A stretch of DNA of 64,000 bases. Origin: Cudoniella acicularis. Lineage: Eukaryota; Ascomycota; Leotiomycetes; Helotiales; Helotiaceae. Position 1 is the stretch's first letter. Each line of letters begins with the position of its first letter. The translations under genes were made by a program, and so were the position numbers. Below the pieces are notes generated by a model. It did not search any database. It saw only the letters and a program-made list of their open reading frames with translations, and was not told the DNA's origin. Positions 1 through 38,074 of the stretch are shown piece after piece. Location of the stretch: contig JAAMPI010000105.1 of NCBI GenBank assembly GCA_013054445.1, positions 1 through 64,000 of the forward strand, written 5' to 3'.

Positions 1-174
1 GGGGGAAGCGCGGGGGTAGCATACCAGCGCCGGTATCGTTAACCAATCATCAATACCGAATTTCGCCTTCTGAGAGAACCTCGTAAAGAATCGCATCGCA
101 ATGACAATACTGCATAGGGCCAAGAAGGTCCCACCGGCAGCGAGCACATAAGAAGGGTCTTGGTCGTGTCCCAT
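1..174 (-). CDS. Rhodopsin-domain (SAT4-like) integral membrane protein, N-terminal fragment
   Basis: The reading frame starts at the ATG at 174 and runs open for 58 codons to the window edge, so the gene is partial at its 3' side. The fragment shows a first membrane segment (about residues 9-28, ending ..CSIVIAMRFFTRF) followed by the FGIDDWLTIPAL motif. Fungal seven-helix proteins of the 'rhodopsin domain' family (PF20684, near plant-pathogen SAT4/PTH11 relatives) carry this combination of helix 1, basic loop and G-x-DDW at the start of helix 2. A GT near codon 52 (GTATGC) might be a splice donor. The 840 bp upstream give no convincing extra exon. Substrate and role are unknown for most members. 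Family assignment is fairly sure; function is not. Confidence 0.6.
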   Translation of the reverse strand, partial: MGHDQDPSYVLAAGGTFLALCSIVIAMRFFTRFSQKAKFGIDDWLTIPALVCYPRASP

Positions 175-1015: not shown

Positions 1016-1827
1016 ATGCCACCCTATGTCGTGAAAGAGTTGCAGACGAAAGAACAGCTGGATGCAGTGGTAGACGTGATTTGGAAAGCGCAGTACTCGC
1101 CTTACATGCCATCCTCGTCGATATTCTTCCCTGTTTCTGGATACACACCTGAGGATAGAGCAGCTGGAATTTCTGCATCCAAGGAACGATTGTGGAAGGA
1201 ACACTTGTCTTCCAGTCCAGCGGAACATACTTGGATCTTTGTAGAGGACTCCGCAACTTCCGAAATTGTAGCGGGTTCGCTATGGGAGTGGCACGAGAAG
1301 AATAAAGTTATGGATGGAATTCCAAAGATTGATATGTATTGGTGGCCAAATGGTGAGGCTCGGGAGTTTTGCGAGGAAATGTTAAGACAGTGTATGACGC
1401 CTCGTTCCCTATGGATGCATAGACCAAACGCTGGTAAATTCTTCTCTTGGTCTTCAAAAAAAAGCTCTGAACTAATAACGTGTGTATGTTTATAGGAGTT
1501 AGCATGATGGTCGTGCACCCGGAGCATCGAAAACGAGGTGTTGGTGGGCTCATGATGCAATGGTCGAACAGAAAACTTGATGAGGGAGGCATCGAGGGAT
1601 TTGTTGAGGCTTCGGAGCTGGGGAGGGAACTCTACGAGAAGTGGGGATATAGGGTGGTGATGAAAATTGCATTGTTTTTGCCTCCCAACAAAGGAGACAT
1701 ATGGAATAAGTTGGCTCATGAAATGATGCTACCTCCTTGGTATGCAATGTGGCGTCCTGTGAACGGTGTTGTAAAAGCAGGAGAACGGAACCGACCGTGG
1801 CAACTTGTTCCACCATTGCATCCCTAA
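1016..1827 (+). CDS. GNAT-family N-acetyltransferase
   Basis: Two exons, 1016-1433 and 1496-1827, are joined across a 62-nt intron (GTAAAT..ATAG) and give 249 residues. The frame closes exactly with codon GCT|GGA split 1+2. The protein has an N-terminal substrate-side part with W/Y-rich strands, then the acetyl-CoA loop VVHPEHRKRGVGG at about residues 145-157, matching the Q/R-x-x-G-x-G/A motif A of GNAT enzymes. After this comes ..ELYEKWGYRVV.., the usual strand with a Tyr near the catalytic position. Such fungal enzymes acetylate amines or small metabolites in the cytosol. The gene lies 430 bp from the 3' end of the putative RiPP precursor, so it could be a tailoring enzyme of that locus, but fungal genomes hold dozens of GNATs and proximity is the only link. 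Confidence 0.82.
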
Positions 1828-2258: not shown

Positions 2259-2471
2259 CTAATCGATTGCTCCCACAGAATCGTTGTCGATCTCAGTAAG
2301 AGTGGAAGCATCGAAACGTTTATCAATGGCTCCCACATCATCATTGTTAATCTCGGTGAGAGTAGAAGGATCAAATCGCTTCGCGGCGTCGTGAGAGGGT
2401 CTCACAGCGAGACTGGAGCTGCTGACAGCAAAGACAGCTACCAGCAGGTAAAGGGAGGAGAAAAGACGCAT
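2259..2471 (-). CDS. Putative Kex2-processed repeat (KEP/dikaritin-type) secreted peptide precursor
   Basis: A single-exon frame of 70 residues starts at the ATG at 2471. An in-frame ATG at 2501 would add 10 polar residues and spoil the signal peptide, so 2471 is preferred. Residues 1-22 form a clear secretion signal (MRLFSSLYLLVAVFAVSSSS). A short leader ends in KR at 31-32, followed by an 18-residue unit, KR at 51-52, and a second 18-residue unit that ends at the stop. The units read FD(P/A)STLTEI(N/D)ND(D/S)VGAID, giving an exact 20-residue period. This signal-plus-KR-repeat layout is that of KEP proteins and of precursors of fungal RiPPs such as ustiloxin-type dikaritins, cut by Kex2 in the Golgi. 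A UstYa-type gene starts 890 bp away in the divergent direction, which supports a RiPP role. The units have Phe but no Tyr, Trp, His or Cys, unlike most known dikaritin cores. A secreted signalling peptide is the alternative. Confidence 0.72.
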   Translation of the reverse strand: MRLFSSLYLLVAVFAVSSSSLAVRPSHDAAKRFDPSTLTEINNDDVGAIDKRFDASTLTEIDNDSVGAID

Positions 2472-3360
2472 GTTGGATATTTTTTGGGGTTGATGGGACA
2501 ATTTCTGGCAGTATGTTGTTAGTATGACAAAACCGTATCATGGGATAACTACCTTGTATTTCAAATAAAATTTGTTGGTCTGAGCAAGCACTAAGTGTAA
2601 ACGTATTTGTATGAGGTAAAGAATTACCTTTTCGAAGGTAATTACACAGTATGGAGAATTTCGACCTTGAGACACTTATGGGTGAGGAGTTGGTGCTGCC
2701 GTGTAAGAAAGATGCTCGGAAATGGATAAGGGGGAAATTTCAATATGAAACTAAATCAAATCCCAAATTTTTTTCAATCATTCACGCTTTAGGCAATTCT
2801 CTATCTCAACACCGGAGTTTTGTGTGGGTCGTATATGCTAAACTGCCGGTGGCGCAATAGTTGTGTGACAGATGTGACATGCATATGCATCCAGTATTAA
2901 TTGCAGCAAGCAGCCGAAATCTTCACACCACTAATGAGTACTTTCCTTCCCTTATCTCTGCATGCCTCCATGGTTTGTGTCAAAAGTGATATTGCCAATG
3001 ACTCATTGGCCACTATCGAGGCTCTTCATAATCCTATCGGAATCGTATTCCTTTCTCGGTAGGTGTTACGAGTTATGTAACAAGAGTTTGGAGATTAGAA
3101 GACCAACTTTCTAACCCTCCCACAGAGGCATCCTCGAATATAGGTGGGTTGCGCTGTCGGGATATTCCAAATCAGTCTTTTCACATGAAACTGGACCAAA
3201 GCAAGGACCTTTCCATGTCTTTCTTTGGAGTGCGGAAAGCTAACCCTCCGATATCATTTAGACAGTTTAGGCAGCAAATATTTTCTATCTCAAGCTCTCC
3301 GCTATTCTCAGTCTATCAACTTCAAGCTGAAGCGATCTAGCGCCAACAAAAACAACAGTC
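2472..3360. promoter_or_regulatory. Divergent intergenic region between precursor and UstYa-like gene
   Basis: An 890-bp AT-rich spacer holds the promoters of both divergent genes. Short open frames (for example 2651-2860 on plus) lack any recognisable feature. A shared bidirectional promoter is inference from orientation. Confidence 0.4.
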
Positions 3361-4347
3361 ATGGAGTCACCCTCAAAAGAACGCTTGTTACAGGACGATC
3401 TTGCAGATGAAATCTCGAGCTTCCCATATCAACTACCCAAATCTCAGTTTTCTGGTTCTTTTGCAATCAAATTTATGCTGGTAACAATAATTTGCCTACT
3501 GGGAAGCAATACCTTTCTTCTGGTTCATTACCAAGCAGCTCAAAAGGAAAGAAGGCACGTTCTGGGTTCCTCACAATATGGTATGTAGAAGCAAAAAAGA
3601 ATTGAAGTATATTTGGCCGACTTACATCTATAGCTGAATTAGCATTTGATACTCCAGTGGTATATCACAATTACACCGACTACTGGGGATCCAATCAAAC
3701 ACTTGCAGATGAGCTTTGGGACAGCATTGACACGAGCCCCTTAGTTGTTGCTCTTGGAGATGACTGGGCAAAAAAGCACAATCTTCCACTCTCAATCTTC
3801 CGCTTCCCATGGGATCCATCTGCAAAGGGTGTATACTACCTCAAGGCATTCCACGGACTACATTGCCTCGTAAGCTCCTTCCAATTTATCTAGCATTTTT
3901 CATATTCTAGGGTTGGCTTGCCTGCTTATCTAACCATTAACGCTTCCTTAGAAATCCATGCGTAAAGCATATATAGAATATGAGCGCGGCTTAACACCTA
4001 CTATTCATGCGGGTCACTTCCACCACTGCATCGACGCCCTTCGACAGGATGTGCTGTGCTACGCAGACGACACACCCATGCCGATGCACGATTTCCCTAA
4101 TAAAGTCGGCAATAACCAGATACGGACGTGCCGGAATTTCGACCGGCTGATAGAGTGGACGCGTGAGCCGGAACGTCACGCTTGCTATCATCGCTGGAGT
4201 GATTACAAGGGCATGCCGAAGAATAAGCTGGAGATGTTTGCGTTTTGTGATAAGGATTCGGAATACCATCCGTTAATGAAGGCTTATTTTGAGAAGTTTG
4301 GTCACAAGCCGCTGTATGGAGCAGATGATCATTTTAGATCGTCTTAA
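3361..4347 (+). CDS. UstYa-family (DUF3328) oxidase-like protein
   Basis: Three exons, 3361-3580, 3634-3869 and 3952-4347, encode 283 residues; both introns (53 and 82 nt) are GT-AG and keep frame. A short polar N-terminus precedes one membrane helix at about residues 37-57, so this is a single-pass type II protein. The two family motifs H-x-x-H-C are intact: HGLHC at 147-151 and HFHHC at 174-178, followed by ..LRQDVLCYAD. DUF3328/UstYa proteins catalyse oxidative macrocyclisation or related oxidations in fungal RiPP pathways (ustiloxin, phomopsin, asperipin) and act in the secretory route; they also appear in some other secondary-metabolite clusters. The divergent KR-repeat precursor 890 bp away is the natural candidate substrate. 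Only one copy is seen here, whereas ustiloxin has a UstYa/UstYb pair, and no tyrosinase or P450 is next to it. Confidence 0.86.
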
Positions 4348-4650
4348 GGCATAGGAATAAGATAGCTAGCTTAGAGCTAGCAAAGTAAGCAAAATAAAAC
4401 ACACTTCTTTCTCTTTATTGGGCCGTGATTAGGAAAGCAAAACCTGTCGACCGATTGGCAACATAACTGAAATCTCTATATATATCGTATCCTACCTTTA
4501 GAGTAAGTTTACTGTTTTCCCCTAGCGGTCTTTGCCAACTTTGGAGACCTGAAATTATTATAATGACATTTCCTTCCCATTTTAGGTTGTTTATCACCCC
4601 AAGTCAAAGCATTCCCGGAAACAAATACCTACATCTGAACACCTCTCACT
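4348..4650. other. Intergenic, 3' flank of UstYa-like gene
   Basis: AT-rich spacer with no supported feature. Confidence 0.35.
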
Positions 4651-5376
4651 ATGAAATCCACAACTATTCTCGTAGCCATAGGCTTTACCCTGGCTACCCC
4701 AGCATAAGGTGCTCCTGTTTTTACCTGCCCGGTTGGTGACAAGTTACCGCGTCCACGTGACCACACTATCACATAAAAGCTAGCTTCCTCTAATTAGGAC
4801 TGTAACAACCACAACTCTCACTGCAACACCCATTTGACTCTGCAGCTCTGTGGACCAACTGCCTTTTCTGTTGGAGAGCAAGAATACAGATTCTGGGGCG
4901 CAGGGATGCCATGGATCTTTCGTTTCCCTTGCTTGTTTTCGAAGCGCTATAATTTCTACCCCAACTACCCCAACGCCCCCAACTGGGGTTCACCTGCTGC
5001 ATTCTATTCACATGACAGCTTTTTATATCGCGAGAACAGAATTACCATTAACTTCCCCCATTTAGGTCTCTCATATTGTCCTGCACCTCTGTCATTTCAT
5101 TGCGATAATAGATTACTTACCCTTCTGACATTTCTTGAAAATCGACCCGGTGTAGCAATTGTTACTCCAACGGCGAATTTAGTAGCTTCTGGAGCAAAAT
5201 CTAAATATACTGTGGAGATCCAACTGTCGTCGGCGATGGAGTCGATAAGGAAGAAAATGCATATATTGGACGTCGAACCTCGCTTTCCTCAGTCTTCTCG
5301 AGCAAATTCTCATCCCTCAACGTCAAATCCTCAAGTCTTCAAGCTTTCTGTCCCAATTCCAAAACTTCAACCCTGA
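4651..5376 (+). pseudogene. Relic of a small Cys-rich secreted protein (tentative)
   Basis: An ATG at 4651 opens a hydrophobic signal-like stretch (MKSTTILVAIGFTLATPA) that ends in TAA at 4705-4707. In the same frame the text continues with GAPVFTCP, as expected after a signal peptide. A possible intron from about 4730 to 4797 (ending CTAATTAG) leads into an open frame from 4798 with regularly placed Cys (DCNNHNSHC..) that stays open to 5376. This looks like a secreted small-protein gene broken by one stop codon, but no family is recognisable. The latter part (from about 4900) may be non-coding promoter of the next gene. Confidence is low; the open frame alone could be chance. Confidence 0.3.
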
Positions 5377-5447: not shown

Positions 5448-6539
5448 ATGTCTTCTCAAACCGTCTTCCGCCTTACTTCAAGAGACGGCTTCGAGGGGCT
5501 CCAGGCTTTCAAAGAGCTGATTCCCACCGTCGGCCAATATGAAGTCCTCATCAAAGTGCGAAGCGTCGCATTGAATCAACGAGACGTCGCCATCGCCACC
5601 TCTACGTATCCGCTTCCTGTGAAAGATCAGGTCATTCCTTGCTCCGATATGGCCGGTGAGGTTGCACAAGTAGGAGATCTTGTTAATGGGTTTTCCATTG
5701 GCGACTCCGTTCTTGCCCCGCTCAATCCTTCATTTGTGTACGGCGTCTTGCAGGACTCCCACGGCTCCGACACCTTTGGTGGCCTCAGAGATGGCATGCT
5801 TAGGGAATATATCGCATTGCCGGCACACGCCATGATCAAGCTGCCCAAGTCGTCTCATAGCTTCACTCAATGGGCTGCTGTGGTACAGGCTGGCACGACA
5901 GTATGGAATTCTTTTTACGGCAATATGCCGTTGAAGCCGGGTGACACAGTACTCGTTCTTGGTAAGATTGTCCAAACCTCCCCCCAAAACATCAACTTAC
6001 CATCTATAGGCACCGGAGGGGTTTCCTTGACGGCTCTCATCTTTGCCAAAGCTGCTGGTGCAACCACCATCATCACATCGTCCAGCGACAAGAAGCTCGA
6101 ATATGTGAAATCCAAATTCGGTGCCGACCACACAATCAACTACAAAACGCATCCCAACTGGGCTGCTGAGGTACAGCGCATCACTAACGGTCAGGGTGTA
6201 AACCACATCATCGAGATTAGCGGTGCGGGAACGATCCAGCAGAGTCTTGATTCTGTTGCGCGCGGAGGGATCATTTCTGTAATTGGGTTCTTGACAACTG
6301 TGCCCCAAGACAAAATGCCCAATGTGACTATGTTATCACTAATCCATGGCTGCGTCGTTCGTGGCGTTCAGGGTGGATCGAAGCAGCAACTTGAAGAGGC
6401 AGTTCGATTCATGGGAAGTCGTGAACTGCAGATGCCCGTGGACAAAACATTTGGTTTCAATCGGGATGAAATTATTGTGGCTCTGAAATATGTCGCCTCC
6501 GGCGAGCACATTGGTAAAGTTTGCATCAATCTAGACTAG
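5448..6539 (+). CDS. Zinc-independent medium-chain alcohol dehydrogenase / quinone reductase-like protein
   Basis: Exons 5448-5961 and 6010-6539 are joined over a 48-nt intron and give 347 residues. The intron length is a multiple of three, so the unspliced frame is also open, but it would place 16 foreign residues inside the nucleotide-binding loop. After splicing the Rossmann motif reads LVLGTGGVSLTAL at about 167-179. The N-terminal GroES-like domain has ..VALNQRDVAIA.. and ..IPCSDMAGEV... The GHE zinc motif and structural Cys quartet of classical ADHs are absent, as in the NADPH-dependent quinone-reductase branch. An in-frame ATG at 5415 would add 11 residues; 5448 fits the family start. 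The substrate is unknown. The last 14 nt of its coding region overlap the coding end of the convergent regulator gene. Confidence 0.88.
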   Translation: MSSQTVFRLTSRDGFEGLQAFKELIPTVGQYEVLIKVRSVALNQRDVAIATSTYPLPVKDQVIPCSDMAGEVAQVGDLVNGFSIGDSVLAPLNPSFVYGVLQDSHGSDTFGGLRDGMLREYIALPAHAMIKLPKSSHSFTQWAAVVQAGTTVWNSFYGNMPLKPGDTVLVLGKIVQTSPQNINLPSIGTGGVSLTALIFAKAAGATTIITSSSDKKLEYVKSKFGADHTINYKTHPNWAAEVQRITNGQGVNHIIEISGAGTIQQSLDSVARGGIISVIGFLTTVPQDKMPNVTMLSLIHGCVVRGVQGGSKQQLEEAVRFMGSRELQMPVDKTFGFNRDEIIVALKYVASGEHIGKVCINLD

Positions 6540-9469: not shown

Positions 9470-10665
9470 CTAATCACTCCAATCAATGGCTCCAAAAGCT
9501 TCCTTGCTGCTAACAAACCGCTCCCCAACCAACCCCAATTCCTTTCCCGTAACCACTTGCTCCCCATTCACCTTACTCCAACTCTCCTTCCCACCATCTC
9601 TACTAAACTCCCCCCCAAAACGCCATCATACTGCCCATCTCCGCTCCCCATCCGCCAGGAAATAACCTCTCATACGTCTTCTCATCCGTCTGCACATACT
9701 CAACCGGTTTCCCCGTGACCTCGCTCCAAGTCTGGAGCAGCTCGACACTAGTTGTGGTTTCCACGTATGCGAGAACGGTTTTGGCAGGGAGGGTGAGGTG
9801 TGGTTTCTGTGCTGTGGCGAGAGCGAATGCGCCGATGTTGGAGGGTGCGGAGCCGATGCTTAGAATAGGGGTAGAGGGAGCAGAGGGCTGGATGAAGATG
9901 TGTTTGCCGGATGGTTTCTAACTTTTTGTTAAAAAAAAGATGAAAAAAAAAAATCGAGCAACATGGCCTCAAAATGAAAGAAATAAAATGAGGAAACAAA
10001 TGGGACACTAACATGCAACGCAGGCCTGAAAACCGGGAAAGTGTAATTCGCAGCGAACCAAGTGATCCAGAAGAACGTAGTTTTGGCCAAGAGGTTCGCA
10101 TCCGCGGCAATGAAGGCATCGACCTTATTTTTCGTTTCGAAATGCGGGATCACGTATTTTCCGTTGGTGATTTGCGCGGCGTTGGGGAGGGTGCTCCAGA
10201 TGTAGTGTTTGAGGGTTGGTGTGGAGGCGGCGGCGCGCGCGAGGTTGATGCCTTGAGTGGGTTCGACGGCGAGGGCGTTGGAGGCGCCGCCGTTGATGAA
10301 GGGCTCAAAGAAGTCGGTTACGGCGAAGATTATGGTGGCTCCCTGTGGGTGTGTTAGTTATGGCTGTTTAATAGGGTGAGGTATTGTAGAGAAAATGATG
10401 GGTTTGTGTGCGTAGGTAAGGCAGCGGAAGATATAGGGAGATGGGATGACTTTACATGGAAAGCTTTAACTAGGCTCGCCTCGCTGTTCAGATCTGCTGT
10501 TACTACTTCGACGCCTTTCTCTGCGAGTGCCGTGGCTCTGGAGCTGGAGGCGTTACGGGTGATGCCACGGACATGGTAGTTACCGGTCGCGAGGAAGGCG
10601 TTGACAACGGAGCCGCCTTGGACCCCGGTTGCGCCTATTATGGCAATGATGGGTTTGCTAGACAT
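9470..10665 (-). CDS. NmrA-like NAD(P)-binding protein, with a one-base frameshift near its 3' end
   Basis: Three exons (10665-10456, 10342-10013, 9917-9470) encode an NmrA/HSCARG-type protein of about 329 residues. The N-terminus IIAIIGATGVQGGSVVNAFL has the GxxGxxG dinucleotide motif, followed by ..YHVRGITRNASSSRA... Exon 2 holds the ..TIIFAVTDFFEP.. and ..HYIWSTLPN.. strands usual for the family. NmrA-like proteins are SDR-fold sensors or reductases that bind NAD(P) and often lack the catalytic Tyr. In exon 3 a run of seven C on the plus strand (9610-9616) shifts the frame: with seven, TAG TAG follows at once; with six, the frame runs on for some 50 typical residues to the TAG at 9470. The total length is also one base over a multiple of three. 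Either the gene lost its C-terminus or the homopolymer was miscalled. Confidence 0.78.
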
Positions 10666-21727: not shown

Positions 21728-24700
21728 CTAGAATAAGCCAGTTAGCTCACTGCGTCTCATGTTTTCAAATGTCAGAGAAGAATGATTTACCATTTGATAA
21801 TACAACCCCCGTTTTCGCAATAAAGAGGCATGATCACCCGTCTCAACTACGCTCCCATCACCAATTACAAAGATCACATCCGCGTTCTGCACAGTAGCAA
21901 GTCTATGGGCAACAACTACCATAGTTCTCCCTTTCCCCGTTCGTTCAAAAACAGCTTGCACAGCTCTTTCAGTCTCAGAATCGAGGTTCGACGTCGCCTC
22001 GTCAAGGAGTAGGACGCGAGGATTTCGAATTAGAGCTCTTGCAATAGCAATTCGCTGTTTTTGACCTCCTGACAAAGCTACGCCTTTAGCACCAACGGCA
22101 GTTTCGTAGCCTTCTGGAAGGGAGGAAATGAAGTCGTGAATCTCTGCTTCGCGGCATACTTGGTGAAGTCTTGTATCTGAAATTTTGTCCTCATCTACAC
22201 CAAGTAGAATATTTTCACGAATTGAACCTTCTATTAGGCCCGCTTCCTGCGCCACAAGGGATATAGAGCGTCGATACTCGTCTAGGTCAATCTCATTAAT
22301 ATCAGTCCCTTGATATAAAATCCGACCTTTCTGGACTTTATAAAACCTTTCAATTAGAACAAGAATTGAGTCAGCTACTGGCATTCCTGCCTTGAAAACT
22401 CAAAGATGTAGTACTAACCTTTCGAGCAGAGAAATGATGCTCGTTTTGCCGCAACCTATTTTGAGTTTCAGTGTATTTCCTGATTAATATATCGCATAAA
22501 AGAGAGGAACCCACCAGATGGACCAACAATAGCTGCAAATTGGCCCCTTTCAATCTATAAAAAGTGAGGATTTATAATTTCGATTTTCAATAGAACTTAC
22601 TGTCAAGCTTAACCCTTTTAACACTGGGACATCTCTTGTAGGATACTTGAAGGAGACATTCTTTAGTTCGATCTTTACCCCTTGAGAACCCTTTTCTTCC
22701 GCTTCTGAATCCAGGTGTTCGAGAGGAATTCCTCTCAAAGTATGCTTGCCCCGCCTTCTCATACTCCTAATTCGGTTTGCGGCAGCAAAAGCTTGCGCTA
22801 TGTCTGCATGAAATTAGTAAAATGAGCAAGCCGCTGGAGACATAGGAACTCATACTAGGTCCAAAACTCAGCGATTGCCCAGCACTTGTGCTTCCTTGAA
22901 CAACAGCTAAATAGATGACCACTGGATTTATTCATTATCATGATTCCTGAAGGCTGACTGAAGACTTACAGTAATTAAACGGCGAGTATTCATGGCTTGC
23001 GAGGAGTTGTCCACCGTACCTGAATGCGGTCAGCTTTCTTGACAGAATCTTGAATGAGTGCAACTCACCATAGTACAAAAGCCATGCAAAGCAGAGCGAT
23101 ACTATCACTCAATGCAAAAATTAACGTTGCCAGTCGAGCCTTCTGAAATGCTTTCCTCGTGTGGTTCCGCAGCATAATTTCATATCGGTAGTAAATCTCA
23201 GACTCAAGAGTAAGTGAAGACACAGTTCTGAAAGCGCCAATACATTCAGTTGCAAATTTTGAACTTTCCGCAAACACCTCGTGATTCATTTTTTCGAACT
23301 GCGTCTCGTATCGAATTCGGAAAAATCCGGCTGCAAGAATGATTGGCATTGAGGAACAGACAGTCAATAGAGTCAGCTTCCAGCCAAAGCAGAAGGACAT
23401 CAAAATCGATCCCACGATATTGAACATGGAAATGAGTACGATGGCCATGTTGATGCCGAGGAGCTGCTGGAGTAGAGTTGGGTCGCTTGCCATGCGTGAG
23501 GTTAAGCCGCCCACTGAGTTTTCTTCTTCGTCGTAGTAGGAGACGGGTTTTAAGAGAACATTCTGGAAATATTCCCGGCGGTAATTGGCTGTAATGTTCT
23601 GCAACAATTAGTTTTTGCCTATTATTGCACCATGCCAAGGGTCGAACTAACGAAAGAGACAGTATTAGACGACCATGCAAGGGTGAAATAGCTGATTCCA
23701 ACTCCGACTGCCAGGATTGTAAACATGAGACACCACCAGTTAGTCTGGCTCTGTAGGTATTCTCCCCATAAATTGAACAAAGATATGAGTTTCGCGAACA
23801 GAAACGCGTGTAATGGGAACGCAGCTGAAGCCATGAATCAGTGAGTATGTCAAAAGTGACGCCACGAAAAACGTACCTCCAGCTCCAAGAGTGCCGAGCA
23901 ACATTAAGCTATACCATTTCCACTGAGGCTTTTGCTCCCAGAGAAAGACACAAAAGCTACCAAAAAGGCCGTTTGATTCTGTAATTTTGTCACCAAAGTC
24001 CGGATTTGAGTCAAGATCAACACTGATGTTCTCGAACGCCGTTAGATCCGAATCGTGACTCTCCGTCTCAAATTTATCAGCTACAATCATCGAGTCATCC
24101 CCCATAGATAAATTCTGAGCATTTGCAAGGGCCCAATAAGGCCCCTCTGTGTCACGAAGAAGCTCAGCGTGGGTTCCATGTTGAGCAACTTGCCCTTTTT
24201 CTATTACCACAATATTGTCTGCGTTCATGATTGTGGAAAGCCGATGCGCAATAGTGATCGTTGTTCGGTTTTTCGAAACTTTGTCTAGGGCAGCTTGAAC
24301 GATCTTTTCGGCGTGGACGTCAATTGCGCTTGTTGCTTCATCTAGGATTAATATTTTGGGTTGTTTGACGATGCTTCGTGCGATTGCTAATCTCTGGCGT
24401 TGACCGCCACTGAGCTTGATACCGGCGTCTCCAACTGGCGTGTTATATCCCTTTCCGAGTATCAGTCTTGTTTTGTCGAAAAGTGGAAATCATGATCTGA
24501 AGCGAAGAGGTGACATACTTCAGGGAGTCTGGTTATGAACTCATCTGCAAATGCTTCAACACAAGCTTTCTTGACTAAAGCTCTCTTCCTTTTCTTGCTA
24601 ATATGCTCCCACTTCGTGCCTATCAAGCCAAACTCGACATTTTTGAATATCGTAGTGTTGAAAAGGAACGGTTCTTGCTGCACCAGTCCTATCTGCGACC

Positions 24701-26793
24701 TCCACCAATTGAGATCGATCTCATGGAGCTTCGTACCGCCAACTGTGATAGTCCCATTTCGAAAGAATGAAGTCTCCATCTTTGGTTAGAATCTTTTAAA
24801 TTATCCACTAGCAAGCATAGAACTTACTATCGTATTATCAGTCATGTTGCCATCGAGCTCATACCACCGCTCTATCAATCCAATAATTGTGCTCTTCCCT
24901 GACCCAGTCGCCCCCACAATAGCAGTTCGCTTCCCGGCCGGAAAACGGATACTTAGATTGTTTAGCACTTTCACATCAGGTCTCGTCGGATATGCAAAAT
25001 TAACATTTTCAAGGACAATATCCTTCCGAGGAGAGACTTCTGGGGCTTTAATACCCTGAGTTCGAGGTTTTGGTGCATCGATGATAGTGAAAAGAATACT
25101 AGCAGCTCCGGCGGCTTGAGCGGCTGTTGTAACGGGGCTGGCGATACTTCCAATAGACATTACGATTGTCATGATCGACATGAAAACTCTTTTTCATGTT
25201 AATAAAAGCGTGAGTAGACTTGATGGTACTCACATGATCATTGTTGAGACATCTGAAATTCTGAGATCCAGATATAATTTGATAGCGTACCAAAATGATA
25301 AGGCGAAGGTCCTGTTGGTCAACTTTTAAAATAATATTTCAAATTCAGGTAGAAGAAGCCTACGCATGAATGGCAAAAAAGGCTACACAGTTATTAGCTG
25401 GTTTATTCTGTGTAGTGAATTGGTGAATTTCATTAGACTTACCAGGTGCCTGTTGGATTGCGACTAACGGGGACATCAGCAGCCCACGGCGTCGTGATTC
25501 ATTCACCCACCCAGCATAACGCTTCGTCATTTTTTTTTCAGCTCCACACGCAACAACCATTCGAATAGACCCAAAGACTTCGCTGGCAATAGAAGATGAC
25601 ATACGATCAGCATGCTCTATTTCTTTCATCATTTTAACCAAAAACGGAGTCGTAATGCTGTAGAACACGACGATAAACAGCAATCCACTGCTTGTTACCA
25701 GTGTTAAGAGCCAGCTGTAGTGAAATGACACAGCTAGAGCAGTAATTACTAAAGAAATACTTTGAAGGAACATAGAGAGTTTCTCCGAGATTCCGATTTG
25801 AAGAATATTAGTGGTGATGGTGAGGATCGCTGCTGTCTGGCCCGGGGGGAGAGCATCGAGTACTGAAATGGGTTGTTGAAATAGGGCTTTCAGGTAGGAG
25901 AGCCGTATTGCTGCTGATACACGGATGCTCACCATTCGAAAGCCTAACTATTTGAATTTCAGCTTCTATTTCTGCAAAATAGGGGGAGTGGAAGCTTGCA
26001 ATTGCCACATAATCAAGCAAAAGCCTTCCCAAAAAGAGGTACACTATGTACAATCTGTATTGTTATGTCAGAACTTCCGTTGTTTTTAATACCTGGAAGG
26101 GGAAATTATACACATTTTTGTTGATAGTTGCTGTGAACATTTCTTTCGTCTCTCCTGAATCCGGTCGGTAAAATGCACTGAATGTGCTTACGAGGTCACC
26201 TGAAAAATAGTTAGTAAATCAAAAATTCCATGAAAAGATTCAAGGGAGCGCACCAAAAACGATGTTCATCAGCGGAAGCGTGACACCGGTGCATATAGAA
26301 GCACAAATAGCAGCAAGTAAAATGAGTATGTCATTTCGGGCTGAATATGAGAAAATTCTCTGTTCCAGTTGTTAATTTGATTTTCATTTACTAAGAAAGA
26401 ATGTTGGCAAGGTCATACCACGAAGTGAGAGAACGCAATTTTATATTCCGCGCTACTGAAAGAATTCTTCTTTTCTTCGCCACTGTTTTGTGGTGGAGGC
26501 TTCCCATCATCGTTCTGAACTTTTTCAAATTCCGCTGGATCCGGCAGTAATGGCTCGTTTACAGCATCTGTTGAACCTTGCCAGTGGCTGGGTGGTGTTA
26601 CTGGCGTCTTCTCGTCTTCAGTATTTAGTGACAGTTTATCAGCTTTAATAACGGTCACATGGTTTGGAGACGTAGGTGATGCTAAAGATCTCTGTGAGAG
26701 CGGAAAGAAATTTATCTGGTCATTAGATTTCGCTTCCCCTTCATCTGGAATTGACGGCTCTCTCGTGGAGAGTGATTGGTATTCGTGAGACAT
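21728..26793 (-). CDS. Full-size ABCB (MDR/Pmd1-type) multidrug ABC transporter
   Basis: A many-exon gene starting at the ATG at 26793 (a GTG nine codons earlier is not used) and ending at the TAG at 21728; roughly 1,300 residues. A soluble N-terminus of about 125 residues leads into TMD1, then NBD1: Walker [11 protein letters not shown] (near 24905), Q-loop [10 protein letters not shown], signature [14 protein letters not shown] and Walker [16 protein letters not shown]2 and NBD2 follow: Walker A VGPSGCGKTS split by an intron, signature [14 protein letters not shown], Walker [14 protein letters not shown]-loop [10 protein letters not shown]. The last exon begins at 22346; an in-frame ATG at 22384 is inside the preceding intron. 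Both ATP sites look canonical. Such pumps sit in the plasma membrane and export hydrophobic compounds. Position near an HR-PKS makes self-protection or product export plausible. I did not fix all exon borders. Confidence 0.9.
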
Positions 26794-28110: not shown

Positions 28111-29173
28111 TTATGCCATACCCAAGTTTAAACACATCGTTCTAATTATGTCTCCAAGCTCTCTGACAGTATCTTTGTCTCGTGGTAAAGTATGTCCTTT
28201 GGCATGATCAAAAAGGTAAGCAGTGTCCATATCGCAAATGTTATACAGTGCCATGGATCCAGCTAGATAAGGATCTAAGGAGCCAACTTGAAGAACAATT
28301 AGCAAAACTACCCAATAAAATAGACCTGCAATAAAAGCTTACTGATATGGCAAGTAGGAATAGTGATTGTCAAATCTGTCTCGTCCGCGAGGGCGATCGA
28401 ATCAAACTCAGGGGTCATCGGCGGCCACCCAGCGAAAAAAAGAGCACACCTGAACATCGGCGGTATCCCCTCTGTCTCGAATCTTCGCTGCTCATGTAAT
28501 ATCAAAGTTGCTGCGATGGTCGCACCTTCGGAATATCCAATGATGCCGTCAAAAGGTCCATCTTCTTCCATAATGCGATATAAATAATCCATGGCCTCTT
28601 GAGCACTTTGATTTTTGTGCTTGTCATTGGTACCGGGAACAGAGATGGCGTTGATGCTGCCCTTCATTAATTCCCGCATCTGGTCTTCTGCTGTTGCCCC
28701 TTTGGGAAAGTTTCGAATTCGTTCGAGGATATCGCCGCCGCCTGATTCTGTCTCCGCAGGTCTCATAAATCGAAAATACGGTCCTTGTCCAAAATAATCT
28801 TCAAATCCTTCAGGTGGGAAGGCTTCAGCCGGTCCGTGGATGAAATGCAACTCAGCAGTTTCGTCAGAGCGCAGCTCTTTAACAAGGGGAGCTTGAAAAA
28901 ATCAGTATCGTTATCTTAATTCTTTTATGTGGAAGTAGCATACTGAGCTGGACCTCAAATTTCTGTGAAGGAATTAGTTTATATTTTTTTTTTTTACCTC
29001 TGAATGCGAGAGTAAACAGTAACTAGTTAAGGAAAATTGGAATGTGAAAAGGCTTTCAACCGAGTCATCTCGAAACATTTGAACTCCCAGCGCGAAAATA
29101 AAGCCCAATCAGTGAAGGAATTTGAACGTACATCTGCGCTTCCATACGCTCCACATAAGCATAAGAATTTCAT
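28111..29173 (-). CDS. FSH1-family serine hydrolase (LovG-like)
   Basis: Four exons rebuilt by frame: 29173-29132, 28962-28944 (a 19-nt micro-exon), 28891-28343 and 28286-28111, giving 261 residues, the usual FSH1 length. The start MKFLCLCGAYGSAD matches the family N-terminus. The micro-exon supplies ..KFEVQL.., and exon 3 opens with ..PLVKELRSDETAELHFIHGP... The nucleophile elbow GYSEGA has Ser at about 141; Asp in ..GSLDPY.. and His in ..AKGHTLPRD.. complete the alpha/beta-hydrolase triad. FSH1 proteins include LovG, which releases the product of an HR-PKS lacking a thioesterase. The HR-PKS starts 1.6 kb away in divergent orientation and has no release domain, so product off-loading is the best guess. 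A general esterase remains possible. Confidence 0.86.
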
Positions 29174-30800
29174 GGTGAAATTAATTAAAGTCCTGCGAAC
29201 TCAAGGTAGAGTCGTTGAAAAGAGTGCGAGAAGAGACCAGTCTACTTCAAATTAATTTTGAATTATGTGAAGGAGTGACCAAAAGTTAGAAATTTTCAAA
29301 ATGTCCCGGGAGTACACAACCTTTCAGACAAAATCTAATCTTTCTTTCCTAATCCCAATCATAATCAAAAACGATTTTCTCGGCACCAAAAACCGCTGAA
29401 ACGCAGCAAGCATTACCATTGTTTGTGATCAATGAGAGATGTCCGCCGAATCTACCGCCGTATATTTTCCTAGCTTAACGTCCCTGTTACCACGCTCTGG
29501 TGCGGCAACCCTGTAACAGCTCTTGAGGATGCAAAGCTCGGGCTCCCGGAAATCTGAAAGAGAGCCCCGGGGATCAGGAACGGGGAAGAATATGGTAAGG
29601 TTCTCCAGTGGTATGATCGAGTCGGGAAGATTTTGAGTCTCCACTACCGGTTTGAAAAGTGCAAAAGTTCTGACGTGAAGACCACTTACCCCTGAAAGAA
29701 TTCATTCTTGGCCATAGTAGTCTGGTAGATCCATGTTGGACTCATGTCACTTACCCATACCTGGATGCCTGCTTGTAATAGGGGGCCGATTTGGAGGTGG
29801 ACCAAGGGAAAGGAGAAGCAAGTGGCATGAGATATGGAGTTGAGGAGCGGTTGATCGACAGGAGATCTGATCGACGGCGCTGCTGGGTCTGCCACCATTC
29901 ATTTCCGCCACAACGCCACCCGCACAGGACAAACTTTAATCCTACCCCACCTTGAGTCCATGCCACGTTTTGAAGTGAAACGTGTATTTTATTTTCTTTC
30001 CTCTCTCCAACCACGATGGCCTTCAAAGTGCCCAAAGCTTGGTGTTGATCGCCATTCGTTCTAGACGTGCAAACAAACGGGTGGCTGGTGCCAATGTGCC
30101 GTACGACCCCTACGCCAAGCAGTTCGAGCTCCCGGCAAGACCTTGTCAGCCTCTCCGGTCTCACGAAGCTTGATGGCACGGCAGCCTGCAGTCTAATAAT
30201 CCCTTCAAGCAGGGAAGCAGTTGTGTTTCTTCTTGCACTGCCCGCAGGTTTCAAGCCCCCTTCTCTGCGTTCACAGAGTCACAGCTCTTGCCAAGGATGG
30301 ATGCAACTCACCAGTTCCCGGAAACTCAGGGACGAGCCTGTCTGATTAAAACCACGCAGCATCATGCTTCACTCGGTAGTATGGTGGCAAATCTACCCGG
30401 AACCTAAACCTTGGCAAGTTTGCAGTCTTGTTCAGATAGGACTGGAGAAGTGGGGGTTAGCAATCGTCCCTGCAATTCAAATGGTAGATGCCCCAATTCA
30501 ATGCACTGGAAGTGCATTGCAGAATCTCTCTGAACTTGTGATGGCAGCCAAACACAGCACACTCAACTCCGCTTTCCCATTCGCCTAAAGGGATTCACTG
30601 AGCTCAGATTGCTGATCGGATTAGCACTCCGGTGAAACGTGCGCCTGTCTGAACTCCACTCAATAAGGAATGGCTCAAAAGGAACTACCCATAGCTCGGA
30701 GACAACATACTTCACATGGCTGGTCTGTCCAATCTCTAAATTTTGAAAAGTCAACAAAATTTTCTGTACATACAGAAGGCGCCGTGACAGCTGGAAGGAT
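29174..30800. other. Intergenic between divergent hydrolase and PKS
   Basis: 1.6 kb with several overlapping short frames on both strands (29.7-30.6 kb) but no domain, no consistent codon pattern and no splice-supported exons. It is probably the shared regulatory region of the hydrolase and the polyketide synthase. Confidence 0.4.
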
Positions 30801-33800
30801 ATGGCTCCTTCTGCAATTGCCTTGGTCCACCAGGGAGAAGGTGCGAATGGGACATCAGAGTCCAACACGAATGGACACATCAGAAATTTCGACAATGATC
30901 AGAACAACATACATGTGGACGATCCCGAAAAGCTCTACAAAGATGCCTACACGCATGGCTACACAGAAGGCTACATTTCTGGTTATACCAAATCAGATTT
31001 TCCAAAGCAGATACCTATCGCAATCGTGGGAATGTCCTGTCGCCTGCCCGGCAACGTTACTACACCGGACGAATTCTGGGAATTGTGTTCGCGAGCCCGG
31101 AGTGGATGGTCCGAAGTCCCAAAGGAAAGATTTGACAATGCCAGCTTCCATCATCCAAACCCGGGCAAGAATGGTTGCTTCAATGCGATTGGGGGCAACT
31201 TTCTCAAGGAAGACTTAGGATTATTCGATGCGCCATTCTTCAGTCTCACTGCTCAAGAAGCAACATCTATGGACCCGCAACAGCGACTTTTGCTTGAATG
31301 TACTTTCGAGGCCCTTGATAGTGCGGGGATTCCCAAACATCAAATTGTTGGAAAAGAGATGGGAGTCTTCATTGGTGGCTCATTTTCGGAGTATGAGTCG
31401 CAACTATTTTCTGATACTGAGACTATTCCCATGCATCAAGCGACCGGTGAGTGGCGGGTTCCTGAAGAAATTTGATTTTAACTTACGAGACGAGGCTGCG
31501 CTTTTGCAATGCAGTCCAACAGAATTTCCCATTTTTTCGATCTAAGGGGGCCAAGCTTCACAATAGACACCGCCTGTTCATCAAGTTTAGTCGCTCTGCA
31601 TCAGGCTTGTCAAAGTTTGCGAAACGGCGAATCGAAATCAGCAATTGTTGGTGGCTGTCATCTCAATATGCTTCCTGAGTTTTGGATCTCGATGTCAAAG
31701 TCGAGGTAAGTCCACAGCCTGGAATATTAGAAGCCGCGGCTAAACAGATACAGGCTATTCTCAGACGAAGGAAGATCTTTTTCTTTTGATAGTCGAGGAA
31801 CAGGATATGGCCGTGGTGAAGGATGTGGAATTGTTATTTTGAAGCCCTTGGACCAAGCTTTAAAAGACAACGACGTCATCAGATCGGTCATTGTCGCAAG
31901 TGGCATTAATCAAGATGGTAAAACTGCCGGAATTACTATGCCAAATGGGTCTGCTCAAGGTGATTTAAGCCCAGAAATTTTTGGAAAAGCCAACTAACAT
32001 CAATTTCAACAGAGGCACTGATGCAATCGGTCTACAAAAGTGCTAGGATAAACCCTAGAGATACTGGATATGTAGAAGCCCATGGTACCGGTACCAAAGT
32101 CGGAGATCCTATTGAAGCCGCTGCTTTACACAATATCTTTGGTGAAGACCGAACGGCAAGGAATCCACTCTTTATTGGCTCCGTGAAGTCAAACATTGGC
32201 CACTTGGAAGCAGCTTCTGGTAATTGAAAGGCCCTTAAAGATGCCTTACAATTGATTAATTATTTTGGTAGGAATTATATCAGTAATCAAAACGACGATG
32301 ATGCTGGAACGTGGCTTTATTTTACCTAATTACGATTTCAAGCAACCGAATGAGAAGATCCCATTTACCAAATGGCACTTGAAGGTTAGTTGAGATTCAA
32401 TTATCAAAACCTCCTGAATAAGACTAATCTAGTACAGGTGCCTATCAATCAACGGCCGTGGCCAAGACCGAAGCGCTTTGCAAGCATTAACAACTTCGGC
32501 TTTGGAGGGACGAATGCCCATGTTGTTCTCGAACGCGCTCCCTTTTTAAAGGAAAATGAATCAGATTCAGGAGATTCTGCGACTCAATTCCGAAAATTAT
32601 TTGTGTTATCTGCTAATGATAAAAGTGCTCTGGAAGCACTTATGAAGAATATCGGCATCTATTTGGAACAGAGACCGGAAATATTTCAAAATGATTTAAT
32701 GAGTAATATTGCGTATACACTTGGACAACGGCGGTCATTTTTACAATGGAGAGTTGCAATTTCGGCCATTTCGTCATTTGATTTAATTCAGACATTGAAT
32801 GGTGGAAAGATGTCTCTCCTTCGGGAGACTGAACCTCTGCGGATTGGGTTCATTTTCACGGGTCAAGGAGCCCAGTGGAATGCAATGGGTCGTGAACTAT
32901 ACGACCAATATCCCGTGTTTACATCGACTATAGACGCTTGCGACAGATGCTTGGTCTTATTCGGTGCACCCTTTTCTCTTGTTGGTGAGCTTTTTTGAAC
33001 CCAAACATCTTTGTGCAAGCTTTCTGGCACTAACAAACAATCCAGATGAGTTGCAGAAAGACCCTGAAACCTCCCTCATAAATGAGGCACATATCAGTCA
33101 ACCAGCATGCACAGCAATCCAGCTAGCTCTTACGGACTTGCTCAAGTCGTGGAACATTTCTCCAGCCGCCGTCACGGGCCACTCCAGCGGTGAGATTGCT
33201 GCAGCATACGCAGCCGATGTCTTGCCTCTCAACTCGTGTATGGCGATCTCATATTACCGCGGCATGACTACTATGGCATTGAAGAAAAGATTTCCGGATC
33301 TCAAAGGATCCATGATGGCCGTCGGATGCAGCAAGGAGGAAGTTATGCCTCTCATCTCAAAGCTGACTGCTAAAGAGGCTCGGATTGCTTGTTTCAATAG
33401 CCCCAGTAGCTTGACGATTTCTGGCGACGAGCCTGCCATTGATGAACTCCAAGCTGCGATGGAAGAGAAGCGATTGTTTAACAGAAAGCTACAAGTGGAT
33501 GTTGCATACCACTCCCATCACATGAAACTGGTTGCTAAAGACTATCGAGCATCTTTACAGTCTTTGTGTCCGCCCAAAGCGGCGCAAGTCAGATTTTATT
33601 CATCACTTGTAGGACATCTTGCTGATGCCTCTGAGCTTGGTCCAAATTACTGGGTCGACAACTTGACTCAGCCGGTTCGGTTTTCCGAGGCTCTGACAAG
33701 CATGTGCAAACCGATTGATGGTTACAAAACCGGCGTCAATATGCTTATCGAGATTGGGCCACACTCTGCACTCGCGGGACCCGTAAAGCAGATATTGAAA

Positions 33801-36800
33801 GCTTGCGGTTCGAATGCAGTGAAGATTCCCTATGCCTCTGCTCTCGTGAGAAAGAAGGATGCTGTTGAGACAACTCTGGATTTGGCTTCTACACTCTTCA
33901 CAAAAGGGGCCACTGTCGATCTGGGTGTCGTCAATTTTCCAAGACCAACCAAGAAACCAACGCTTTTGGTTGACATGCCTCGCTATCCTTGGAATCATCA
34001 AACCCGATATTGGCACGAGTCTCGTATGATGAAAATGCACAAAAATCGAACTGTGCCTCGAAACGATCTTCTCGGAACGTTGGCCAATTATTCGAATGAT
34101 TTAGAGCCAACCTGGAGAAATATCTTGCGGATCGACGACCTCCCTTGGCTTCGGCATCATAAGATTCAGTCTTTGACGCTCTTTCCAATGTCTGGCTTCG
34201 TGGCAATGGCTGTGGAGGCTGCGTCTCAAAGAGCGGCTTCACGCAATATTCATTTTGACAATTTCGAGCTTCGTAACGTCAGCGTCAGCGCCCCACTCAT
34301 GGTTGCTGAGGAGGATATTGAGATGACTCTTCAATTACGACCCCACCAAGAAGGAACTTTAGTTTCCTTTGATATCTGGGACGAGTTTCGCATTCACTCC
34401 TGGGCAGCGAACAAAGGTTGGACGGAGCACTGCAAAGGACTCATTACTGTCAAGACGAAAGGAAATACCACAGTGAATGCTACTCAAGAACCACAAAAGT
34501 CCGAGCCTTTGCTTAACACAATGAGAAGCGAAATAATTCAGGCAGGAGCAAATGTGGTGGACAAATCCAAATTATACGATTCCCTTTCCGAGATCGGAGT
34601 TTCTTATGGACCTGTTTTCCAGGGTATGAACAACTGTAGAGCAGGCAATAGTAATTCATCGGCAGATATTACCACTGTCGATACTGGAGAAGAAATGCCG
34701 CAAGGACATCAGAGTAGCATGATTATCCATCCAGCATTACTCGAGCAACTTGTCGAAATGTATTGGCCAATACTCGCAGCCGGGCGTTCTTCCATCGACA
34801 CTGTCTATCTCCCTTCATCCATTAAGCGCTTGACCATTTCTCGCCAAGTCACTGAGCTCACAAAGATGCCAGGAGGCAGTCTTCGAGCTTTCTGCAGGGG
34901 CTCTCAACCTTCCTCACACGCCAAGCCGATTCAAATGTCGATGTTCGCAACTGCTCCGGACTCCTCCCAGGAAGCACTTATTTTACTAGATGACTTGACG
35001 ATTTCGCCAATTCTAGAGGGAGGAATCCCGACAGAAAGTGTGGTTCACAGGGAGCTTTGCTACAAATTGGACTGGGAACCAATTTTGGAGCCTCTAAGCC
35101 CTTCTGCTACTTTCCATATTACGCCGAGTGAAAATCCCGACGGTAAAACAAACAGAAATTCTATTCATTTGAATGGGGTTACCAATGGACATTCCAACGG
35201 AGTGTCAAACGGTTCATCTCAAAAGGCAAATGGGATTGCAAATTTTCTCGAGGGAGAAGTTGTGATAGTTCGTGGAGATTCTGAACTCCAGAGCGAGCTT
35301 GCATCGAAGTTAGCCAGTGTTATAGGGCACTTGACAGGCAGGAGACCAAATATTGGTACCCTGTCCGATATGAACACTGAGGACAAAGTCTGCTTATTTC
35401 TTCAAGAGCTTGACCAACCCCTTCTGTCATCCCTCATATTGACCGAATTTACATTCTTGCAGAATATTTTGACGAAAGTCCGAGGGATTCTTTGGGTTGT
35501 TCGCGGCGCATATGTTAAATCATCAAATCCAGACGCAAACATGGTCACTGGGTTGAGCAGAAGCATTCGTTCGGAAACGTTACTTAAATTCGCAACCTTG
35601 GACTTAGATTCGAAGTCTATACTCGACAGCGATGGTGTCGTGGACGCAATTCTGAAGGTCTTCAAGGCAACTTTTGGTCCCAGTGCTGAAGCAAATTGCG
35701 AATTGGAATTCACGGAGAGAAATGGCAGCTTTTTCACTCCCCGTATCGTTGATGATACTGAGATGAACGAGTATGTACACAAACAGACGAAGTCCTCTGT
35801 TCTAGAGCCGACGTTATTTGCGCAGGGAGACCGACCGTTGAAGATCGTCATCGAAACACCCGGCGCTTTGGAAACTCTGCATTTTGTCGATCAGTTAATC
35901 GAAGAAAGTTTGCCAAATGATGAAGTTGAGATTGAAATCAAGGCAGTGGGTATGAACTCTGTAGATGCCGCGGCCATAATGGGACAGCTTGAGACATCAA
36001 ATTTCGGCTTTGAGTTTAGCGGCATGATCGTCAAGATCGGAAGCAAAGTCGCCAAATTTTCGGTTGGGGATCATGTTGCTGGAATTTCGGTCTCTCAAGG
36101 TGTTTACTCGACCTGCACTCGCACCAAGGAAGCGTTGATATTTGGAATCGGCGATTCTATTTCTTTCGAGGAAGCAGCTTCGATACCAGTTGCATTTTCC
36201 ACCGCATATTATGCCCTGGATGACCTAGGGAGACTTCATAAGGAAGAACGGATTCTAATTCATGGCGCCACCAGTGCAGTGGGCCAAGCAGCGATTTGTT
36301 TGGCTCAGATGATGAGTGCTGAGACATACGTCAGCATCGAGAGCACGGAAGACAGAGAACTGCTCAAGCGGATCTATGGTTTAAATGATGACCATATATT
36401 CTCAAGCCAAAGGTCTTCGTTTGGATCGGCAATTCGCAGACTCAGTGGTAAAGAGGGTTTCGATGTTATCATAAATTGTGTCTCCACAAGCATGGACAAC
36501 CTCACAGATATATGGGACTCTCTCGGCAGTTTTGGGCGTTTCATTGATGTTGGAAGACAAAATTATAACGTGAGGCTCGAGACTGCTCGACTTAATCACA
36601 ACCAGAGTTTCCTGTCCGTGGATTCGATTTCCTTGGCCACCGAAAGACCAAAAATCATGGGAGGCCTGATTTCCAACATCTCCGAGCTTCTATCACGAGG
36701 CAAGATAAGACCTTGTTCAAGTACGATTTTTCCAATGTCAGATATTGAGACGGCGTTCAAAGCTTTACAGAGCGGGAGCACGACAGGCAAATTAATTGTT

Positions 36801-38074
36801 GCGCCACAAGCTGGTGACAAAGTCAAGGTCAGTACTTAATTTCCCTTCTGATTTGAATTGTCATTGGAGTGTCATCATTAACGGCTTCTTAGGCAACTCC
36901 TTCTAGTAAAAACGCCAAACTACTCCTTTCAAATGCCACATACATTCTGATTGGTGGCACAGGCGGGCTGGGAAGAAGTATGGCTCGATGGATGGCCGGT
37001 AAGGGAGCGAAGAACCTTGTCCTTGTCTCCAGAAATGGAACATCCACTGGAAAGGTTAAGGATTTGATCGATGAGCTTTCTGCAATCGGAGTCAATGTTG
37101 CAGTAAGGCAGTGCAATGTGTCAAACAGCGACTCGGTACAAAAACTCATCAGAGACGATTTGGCTGGCATGCCGAAAATCAGAGGTGTTATCCATGGAGC
37201 TATGGTTCTTCATGTAAGTTGTTCTCCATAATCTTTTGGGTGTCACTAATACTTGCAGGACGTATTGTTTGAGAAGATGACTTATGAGCAATACTCCACA
37301 GTCATAGAATCAAAAGTCTGGGGTGCCTGGAATTTTCATAATGCCTTGAAAGATCAATCTCTCGACTTTTTCGTGGCCATCTCGTCAACAGCTGGCGCAG
37401 TCGGGAATAGAGGTCAAGCTGCATACTCAGCAGCTAACACATTTCTCAATGCATTTATCCAATATCGTCTCTCACTAGGTCTACCAGCTTCCTCCCTCGA
37501 CCTAACTGCCGTTTCAGATGCCGGTTATTTGGCAGAAAACCTTGAAGCGGCTGCCGAAGTTTTCAAGAATCTCGGAAGCGACACCATTTGCGAAGCTGAA
37601 GTGATGGCACTCCTCGGAGCAGCAATAGATGGCCATCTTGCACACATTTGCAACAATCACACCATCACTGGGGTGCGGATTACGCCTTCCACGCCTTTCT
37701 GGACGACAGATGCAAAATTCAAACACTTGAGACTAGCAGCAGAAGCAGCGGCTGCCAAAAACAGCAGTCAAGCCGAATCCATCTCTTTCAACGCAGCTCT
37801 CAAAGTGGCCCAATCTCTCGAAGAAGCTCAAGATGTGGTGTGTCAAGGGTTGCTCAACATTCTTCCTTCCGTGTTAATGCTAGAAAAGGAGGACATGGAT
37901 ATCACGAGATCGCTCTCAAGCTATGCATTGGATTCACTGGTGGCGATTGAGGTTCGGAACTTCATCACGAGGGAGTTTGAGGCCAACTTGCAGGTTTTGG
38001 AGTTGTTGTCTAGTGGGTCCATTGAAACGTTGGCTAAGGCTATTTGTATAAAGAGCAAGCTGGTTTCGTTTTAG
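30801..38074 (+). CDS. Highly reducing type I polyketide synthase (KS-MAT-DH-ER-KR-ACP)
   Basis: Nine exons: 30801-31446, 31495-31705, 31754-31959, 32013-32219, 32272-32384, 32438-32984, 33046-36827, 36893-37213 and 37259-38074. They total exactly 2,283 codons (2,282 residues). KS spans about 71-500 with DTACSSS (Cys 243), VEAHGTGT and [15 protein letters not shown] has GHSSGE (Ser 690). DH (from about 985) keeps His 1015, but the HxxxG Gly is Ser 1019 and the second-motif Asp is Glu 1210. ER follows, with [13 protein letters not shown] at about 1,715. KR has GGTGGLG at about 1,920 and the S-Y-N set in [23 protein letters not shown] has DSL (Ser 2237). The DH-to-ER distance leaves no C-methyltransferase, and no thioesterase is present. 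It builds a reduced polyketide chain from malonyl-CoA. Neighbouring FSH1 hydrolase, SDR and ABC pump suggest a small cluster. The product is unknown. Confidence 0.96.

Follow-up and report, generated by a model that had tools for sequence, protein, structure and literature searches.

Ustiloxin and phomopsin, both dikaritins (ust-RiPS), are made from secreted Kex2-repeat precursors encoded near UstYa-family (DUF3328) oxidases; their clusters hold two and five UstYa genes, respectively, together with a tyrosinase, and their rings close on tyrosine (PMC7329392). Asperipin-2a, from Aspergillus flavus, has a leaner cluster with one Kex2-repeat precursor and one UstYa gene (PMC7329392, PMC12048977), accompanied by reductase and transporter genes (PMC12048977), and its ring also closes on tyrosine (PMC7329392). 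In vitro work has demonstrated that family members form the Tyr-Phe ether of asperipin-2a by means of a dicopper site (PMC12186524), and evidence from CctR, the cyclochlorotine hydroxylase, describes DUF3328 proteins as lumen-facing, dimeric, dicopper, O2-dependent C-H oxidants whose activity is abolished by changes to the conserved His and Cys residues (PMC12435403). Lichen RiPP clan R2 is different again, with a single UstY gene, no tyrosinase and flanking GNAT acetyltransferases, and with no repeat precursor identified in the account given in PMC12048977.

In the relevant part of a survey of 7878 Kex2-processed repeat proteins (KEPs), DUF3328 genes lay near 22% of them, most often as the next gene, and tyrosine occurred in 65.6% of the repeats of DUF3328-linked KEPs versus 38.2% of the repeats of those without DUF3328 near (PMC7329392); tyrosine-free repeats beside DUF3328 genes are a minority, and are not new. 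That survey defined KEPs by at least three repeats of at least eight residues between dibasic sites (PMC7329392), and an alternative rule, as worded in PMC6339444, calls for at least three repeated motifs with the C-terminal piece excluded, so that a precursor with two cores would be passed over by both. The dikaritin criteria of Ding et al., as quoted in PMC12048977, further include a tyrosinase, a methyltransferase, multiple DUF3328 genes, and transporters or peptidases.

Here we describe a precursor-UstYa pair near the end of contig C58 of the helotialean ascomycete Cudoniella acicularis, in a stretch of 64,000 nucleotides called the window. We read it, with a probability of about 0.77, as a small dikaritin-like (ust-RiPS type) locus in which cores released by Kex2 would be oxidised by the adjoining UstYa enzyme. 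As in ustiloxin and phomopsin biosynthesis, a Kex2-repeat precursor apparently destined for secretion lies near a UstYa-family gene, but there is only one such gene, only two cores, and no tyrosinase match on the contig. The one-to-one pairing is that of asperipin-2a, whereas the cores are 18 residues long and lack the tyrosine on which that ring closes; the single UstYa gene, missing tyrosinase and, by description, a nearby GNAT gene recall lichen clan R2, except that a repeat precursor is present. The locus is real and, for this class of fungal peptide pathways, not unusual; its tyrosine-free core family is its most interesting trait.

A two-core precursor and its divergent UstYa gene

The precursor (Table 1) has the layout MRLFSSLYLLVAVFAVSSSSLA-VRPSHDAA-KR-FDPSTLTEINNDDVGAID-KR-FDASTLTEIDNDSVGAID-stop, in which the signal cut after MRLFSSLYLLVAVFAVSSSSLA is our guess. 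Its initial Met is followed by a hydrophobic stretch according to a crude hydrophobicity rule for signal peptides, and the protein is apparently secreted. The spacer before core 1, FDPSTLTEINNDDVGAID, ends in AAKR, and KR again separates it from core 2, FDASTLTEIDNDSVGAID; the preliminary description of a secreted 70-residue precursor with two KR-bounded 18-residue repeats is thus right as to the frame and the repeats, although core 2 runs to the stop codon with no KR behind it. With two cores only, the second of them C-terminal, the protein has fewer than three repeats and is strictly KEP-like. Tyr, Trp, His and Cys are absent from the cores, which contain one Phe.

The two repeats differ by 8 silent and 4 replacement changes over 12.3 and 41.7 sites, respectively (dS 1.50, dN 0.10; dN/dS approximately 0.07), meaning that the peptide and not the DNA is being kept: the repeats are under purifying selection. 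Searches with the precursor returned only itself in its own genome (E up to 0.001), no relative among plasmids and, in a database of 5.8 billion proteins, again only itself, in an entry with no source listed. Of three core strings sought in the literature, two gave no match and the third matched only papers on mistletoe, where, judging by the titles, it is a chance run of letters.

Table 1 Features of the precursor-UstYa locus and its nearest neighbours in the window
Feature	Position	Strand	Details
Rhodopsin-like membrane protein gene	1-174	-	5' end only, the contig end truncating the gene; 75% identity with the sister-locus gene over 52 aa
GNAT acetyltransferase gene, possible member	1016-1827	+	One inferred intron, 1434-1495
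RiPP-type precursor gene	2259-2471	-	70 aa (70 codons), read without an intron; start resembling a signal peptide, then a short KR-terminated spacer and two cores of 18 residues
Divergent intergenic region, candidate shared promoter	2472-3360		889 bp between the two start codons
UstYa/DUF3328 oxidase gene	3361-4347	+	Three inferred exons, 3361-3580, 3634-3869 and 3952-4347; 283 aa
Zinc-type MDR reductase gene, possible but unproven member	5448-6539	+	Identified by Pfam

The neighbouring gene, with inferred introns at 3581-3633 and 3870-3951, matches the Pfam UstYa family (PF11807/DUF3328) with an E-value of 2.3e-23 (83.7 bits against a cut-off of 25) and encodes both HxxHC motifs, HGLHC and HFHHC; score and motifs together identify it as a UstYa gene with the motif pair intact, as had been proposed. 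In an alignment of 28 sequences that includes it, no sequence departs from the first His, and each of the remaining motif residues (three His and two Cys) is conserved in at least 90%. An AlphaFold2 model, with a mean pLDDT of only 63 and a pTM of 0.53, would set both HxxHC motifs at, or close to, the beginnings of helices (84-100 and 109-123); a sequence search of the PDB with the orthologue P0003 gave no relative at E up to 1. The gene model includes a hydrophobic stretch that we take to be one membrane helix and that full-length relatives also have, and P0003 is among the relatives with a similar N-terminus. CctR likewise combines a DUF3328 domain, the HxxHC pair and one membrane helix, and it acts on a non-aromatic C-H bond (PMC12435403).

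The predicted protein is 100% identical over 74% of its length to the C. acicularis (Helotiales, Ascomycota) protein G7Y89_g2405 (P0002). That public model has a different first exon, which fits an ATG at 2651, and it is missing the hydrophobic stretch; as drawn over window positions 2651-4347, its first exon looks wrong.

The two genes diverge, and the spacing of 890 bp given earlier measures 889 bp; the intergenic region shares no more k-mers with its counterpart at the sister locus described below than shuffled sequences do. Contig C58 carries one UstYa locus and no tyrosinase match. A P450 haem signature is absent from the six unspliced frames of the window, a search in which an intron-split signature would be missed, and Pfam found no P450 in the 19 of 37 long window frames scanned (up to approximately 38 kb), all in keeping with the earlier statement that there is one UstYa-type gene and no tyrosinase or P450 nearby. 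A single UstYa gene without tyrosinase is not unusual, given that asperipin-2a has one UstYa gene and that six of the eight precursor loci found in this genome do too. Measured by the dikaritin criteria, a repeat precursor adjoins a UstYa-family gene and the pair is kept in a collinear sister block; of the further features, there is no tyrosinase match and a single UstYa gene, and the ABC transporter exons lie some way off, at 21.7-25.9 kb.

The word 'minimal', which the preliminary description had attached to the locus, goes beyond what the contig allows: the window and the contig share their first base, 2258 bp short of the precursor, so further genes may lie to the left, and the GNAT and rhodopsin-like genes may belong to the locus. 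The rhodopsin-like piece, 58 residues long, has no Pfam match of its own. For the GNAT gene we found no copy in the 9.9 kb examined of the sister contig, which counts against its membership, and no match in region L039, which has a weak GNAT itself. The MDR reductase similarly has no copy in those 9.9 kb, leaving its membership as possible.

The sister locus and other precursors in the genome

Elsewhere in the genome, the best match to the window UstYa is on contig C1329 (61% over exon 2; the next by E-value, on C702, has 43-47%). This contig had been sampled before its kinship to the window enzyme was known. Its UstYa gene diverges, across 913 bp, from a 102-residue precursor annotated as G7Y89_g7612, with two 20-residue cores, SSTISAIGQETDNAAMGDIE and GSTIAAIGQEADNAAMGGIE, and a shorter third, DFLAEINLDELGSIG; the first two contain no aromatic residue and the third one Phe. 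Between repeats one and two, KR included, dS is 1.09 and dN 0.11 (dN/dS approximately 0.10). Beyond this precursor lies a gene matching Fung_rhodopsin, whose first exon is the counterpart of the rhodopsin-like piece at the left end of the window (75% over 52 residues), and the order and orientation of three genes (rhodopsin-like, KR-repeat precursor, divergent UstYa) are therefore common to the two contigs.

The likeness between the cores of the two precursors is suggestive, not strong: the similarity of LTEINNDDVGAI to LAEINLDELGSI was the best among nine other frames tested, and 5 of 500 shuffles did as well. Gene order and the relationship between the UstYa genes carry the case. A two-row alignment of the precursors retrieved these two only from the 5.8-billion-protein database, and none outside their own genome. 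In a FastTree tree built on approximately 100 columns, the C1329 enzyme groups with one from Halenospora varia (support 0.99), a placement suggestive of an old origin for both blocks. The C1329 UstYa (L043:4003-5403(-)) is cut after its first HxxHC and continues in frame into unrelated sequence, which we take to be transcription-factor-like; Pfam finds the UstYa part only. This enzyme is probably inactive, and the loss of its second HxxHC weakens the evidence that the sister locus gives for a shared reaction. In the public gene model of its nearest relative, Halenospora P0020, the two motifs appear as HLLHS and QILHC.

The 53.2-Mb genome gave 121 UstYa matches, merged into 78 loci on 62 contigs. 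We scanned 284,666 bases, comprising 25 regions round UstYa genes on 23 contigs plus the window, for frames with at least two similar KR- or RR-bounded segments; 18 of the contigs came from the top-ranking UstYa matches and five from lower rows, which makes the sample not a random one. Ten rows came out, representing eight distinct precursors and two frames, L032 3994-4479 and L041 2517-2639, that we rejected as other-frame shadows on the same stretch and did not count. The rest of the window gave no second precursor, and no match at all came from 20 dinucleotide shuffles of the scanned sequence. Precursors were thus present on 8 of the 24 UstYa contigs examined (C40, C58, C279, C336, C801, C1329, C1520 and C1603). 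Of the eight frames, four satisfied the crude signal-peptide rule (the window, L032, L036 and L043); L040 had a weak value and L022, L039 and L041 none, perhaps because introns cut these frames. All precursors other than those of C58 and C1329 carry Tyr or Trp.

At each of the eight loci the nearest UstYa gene is divergent from the precursor, an outcome with a chance probability of 1.5e-5 at one in four per pair, or 6e-5 with the two sister loci, which are not wholly independent, counted once; the pattern impresses less at C279 and C1603, each of which offers a choice of several UstYa genes. With UstYa matches merged by hand into genes, C1603 has two and C279 seven, the remaining contigs having one each. 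Contig C279 (L031, L032) packs its seven genes into 17 kb, beside a six-repeat precursor with cores STDGPSIAIPWTKNYGEYEE or close to it.

Proposed processing and competing readings

In the pathway that we envisage, the signal peptide would direct the precursor into the secretory pathway, where Kex2 would cleave behind each of the two KR sites and the KR left on core 1 would be trimmed off by a carboxypeptidase; as core 2 ends at the stop codon, both products would then end alike, in GAID. Unmodified, these 18-mers have calculated masses of 1934.87 and 1881.85 Da. The UstYa enzyme, predicted to span the membrane once and to expose its catalytic domain to that lumen, would meet the precursor there, and a dicopper centre formed from HGLHC and HFHHC would, with O2, oxidise a core C-H bond by dehydrogenation, hydroxylation or cross-linking. 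The two genes are probably co-expressed from their shared intergenic region. Since the cores lack tyrosine, a tyrosine ether of the ustiloxin, phomopsin or asperipin-2a kind is impossible within them, leaving hydroxylation, dehydrogenation or another C-H cross-link. Of the earlier proposal that the pair makes a cyclic peptide, release by Kex2 and modification by UstYa draw support from the collinear sister locus, the purifying selection on the repeats and the eight divergent pairs out of eight, while 'cyclic' is unproven for cores without tyrosine.

The most serious competitor, which we consider improbable without dismissing it, is a plain Kex2-processed repeat protein whose linear peptides stay unmodified, in signalling or at the cell surface, beside a UstYa gene of another pathway. 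In the survey, 6120 of the 7878 such proteins had no DUF3328 gene near, and tyrosine-free repeats were commoner among these than among DUF3328-linked ones, by the percentages given above (PMC7329392). At the sister locus, moreover, the UstYa gene is truncated, yet the precursor is still an open frame with low dN/dS. What speaks against an accidental neighbourhood is that the divergent pairing has been kept in two diverged blocks and recurs at all eight precursor loci.

A precursor of an alpha-type sexual pheromone would share the signal-peptide-like start, the KR sites and the short repeats. C. acicularis has a detectable alpha-factor, and no functional ste2 could be annotated in it, according to the relevant part of PMC10569646; leotiomycete alpha-factor repeats, as described there, overwhelmingly contain GQ or PG, and those quoted, such as WCGRPGQPC, have two Cys. 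The window cores contain no Cys, GQ or PG, and this reading is nearly excluded. A chance open frame whose repeats are not a gene is also very hard to credit: the protein has no listed source and no homologue outside its own genome, as such a frame would, but shuffling all the sequence scanned yielded no match in 20 rounds, dS far exceeds dN between the repeats, and the collinear sister has an annotated precursor. What the analysis shows directly is the frames, the motifs, the selection on the repeats and a linkage that persists in a sister block; splicing, signal peptide, processing, co-expression and the reaction with its site are deduced from these.

If the dikaritin-like reading is right, two-core tyrosine-free precursors, missed by the three-repeat rule of the two published surveys, are real and under selection, and the substrates of UstYa enzymes include peptides devoid of tyrosine. 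More tentatively, and on balance doubtfully, there may be a Helotiales lineage of precursor-UstYa pairs in which the copper enzyme modifies peptides where an ether bridge would find no aromatic partner. Aliphatic, hydroxy or acidic side chains in an ST[LI]..I ... G.I[DE] frame might, for instance, be dehydrogenated or cross-linked there, and the linked GNAT might add an N-acetyl group. The divergent arrangement, should it hold in a wider sample, would give a simple route to unannotated precursors beside the many UstYa genes of such genomes; our literature search found no text joining DUF3328, a precursor and this arrangement.

Gene families near UstYa loci and further genes of the window

We asked which families lie within 5 kb of UstYa loci, using loci merged at 1.5 kb from exon matches, which are not exact gene counts. 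Five of 46 GNAT loci did (0.58 expected), the window GNAT and a GNAT on C1520 below the Pfam cut-off among them, and 4 of 45 (0.57 expected) without the window locus; for GNAT loci over the Pfam cut-off only, the figures were 4 of 39 (0.49 expected) and, without the window locus, 3 of 38 (0.48 expected, p 0.013). Tyrosinase loci were near UstYa in 3 of 27 cases (0.34 expected), from 39 of 48 rows, the other nine being on contigs already included. Among the matches listed for Fung_rhodopsin, 8 of 142 loci were near UstYa (1.79 expected, p 5e-4), counts that are lower bounds, with 150 of 301 candidates scored and 161 matches; these eight cases are independent of C58 and C1329, whose rhodopsin-like genes are not among the matches listed. 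Rhodopsin-tyrosinase pairs were above chance too (4 of 27, 0.73 expected), whereas rhodopsin-GNAT pairs were not (2 of 46, 1.24 expected). The Poisson values assume an even spread of loci, and such genes may share cluster-rich regions. In the literature we found DUF3328 together with rhodopsin only in work that, by its title, concerns a basidiomycete symbiont.

Past the UstYa gene, at 4650-5376(+), an ATG and a signal-peptide-like stretch broken by stops are followed by an open frame without a Pfam match (4798-5373), perhaps a decayed gene for a small secreted protein. An NmrA-like reductase frame lies at 9932-10357(-), 5.6 kb beyond the UstYa gene. Farther along are ABC transporter exons (21731-25947), an FSH1-type hydrolase (28311-28901) and exons of a highly reducing polyketide synthase (30747-38071(+)), the last two spanning 28311-38071; this group is probably a separate cluster.
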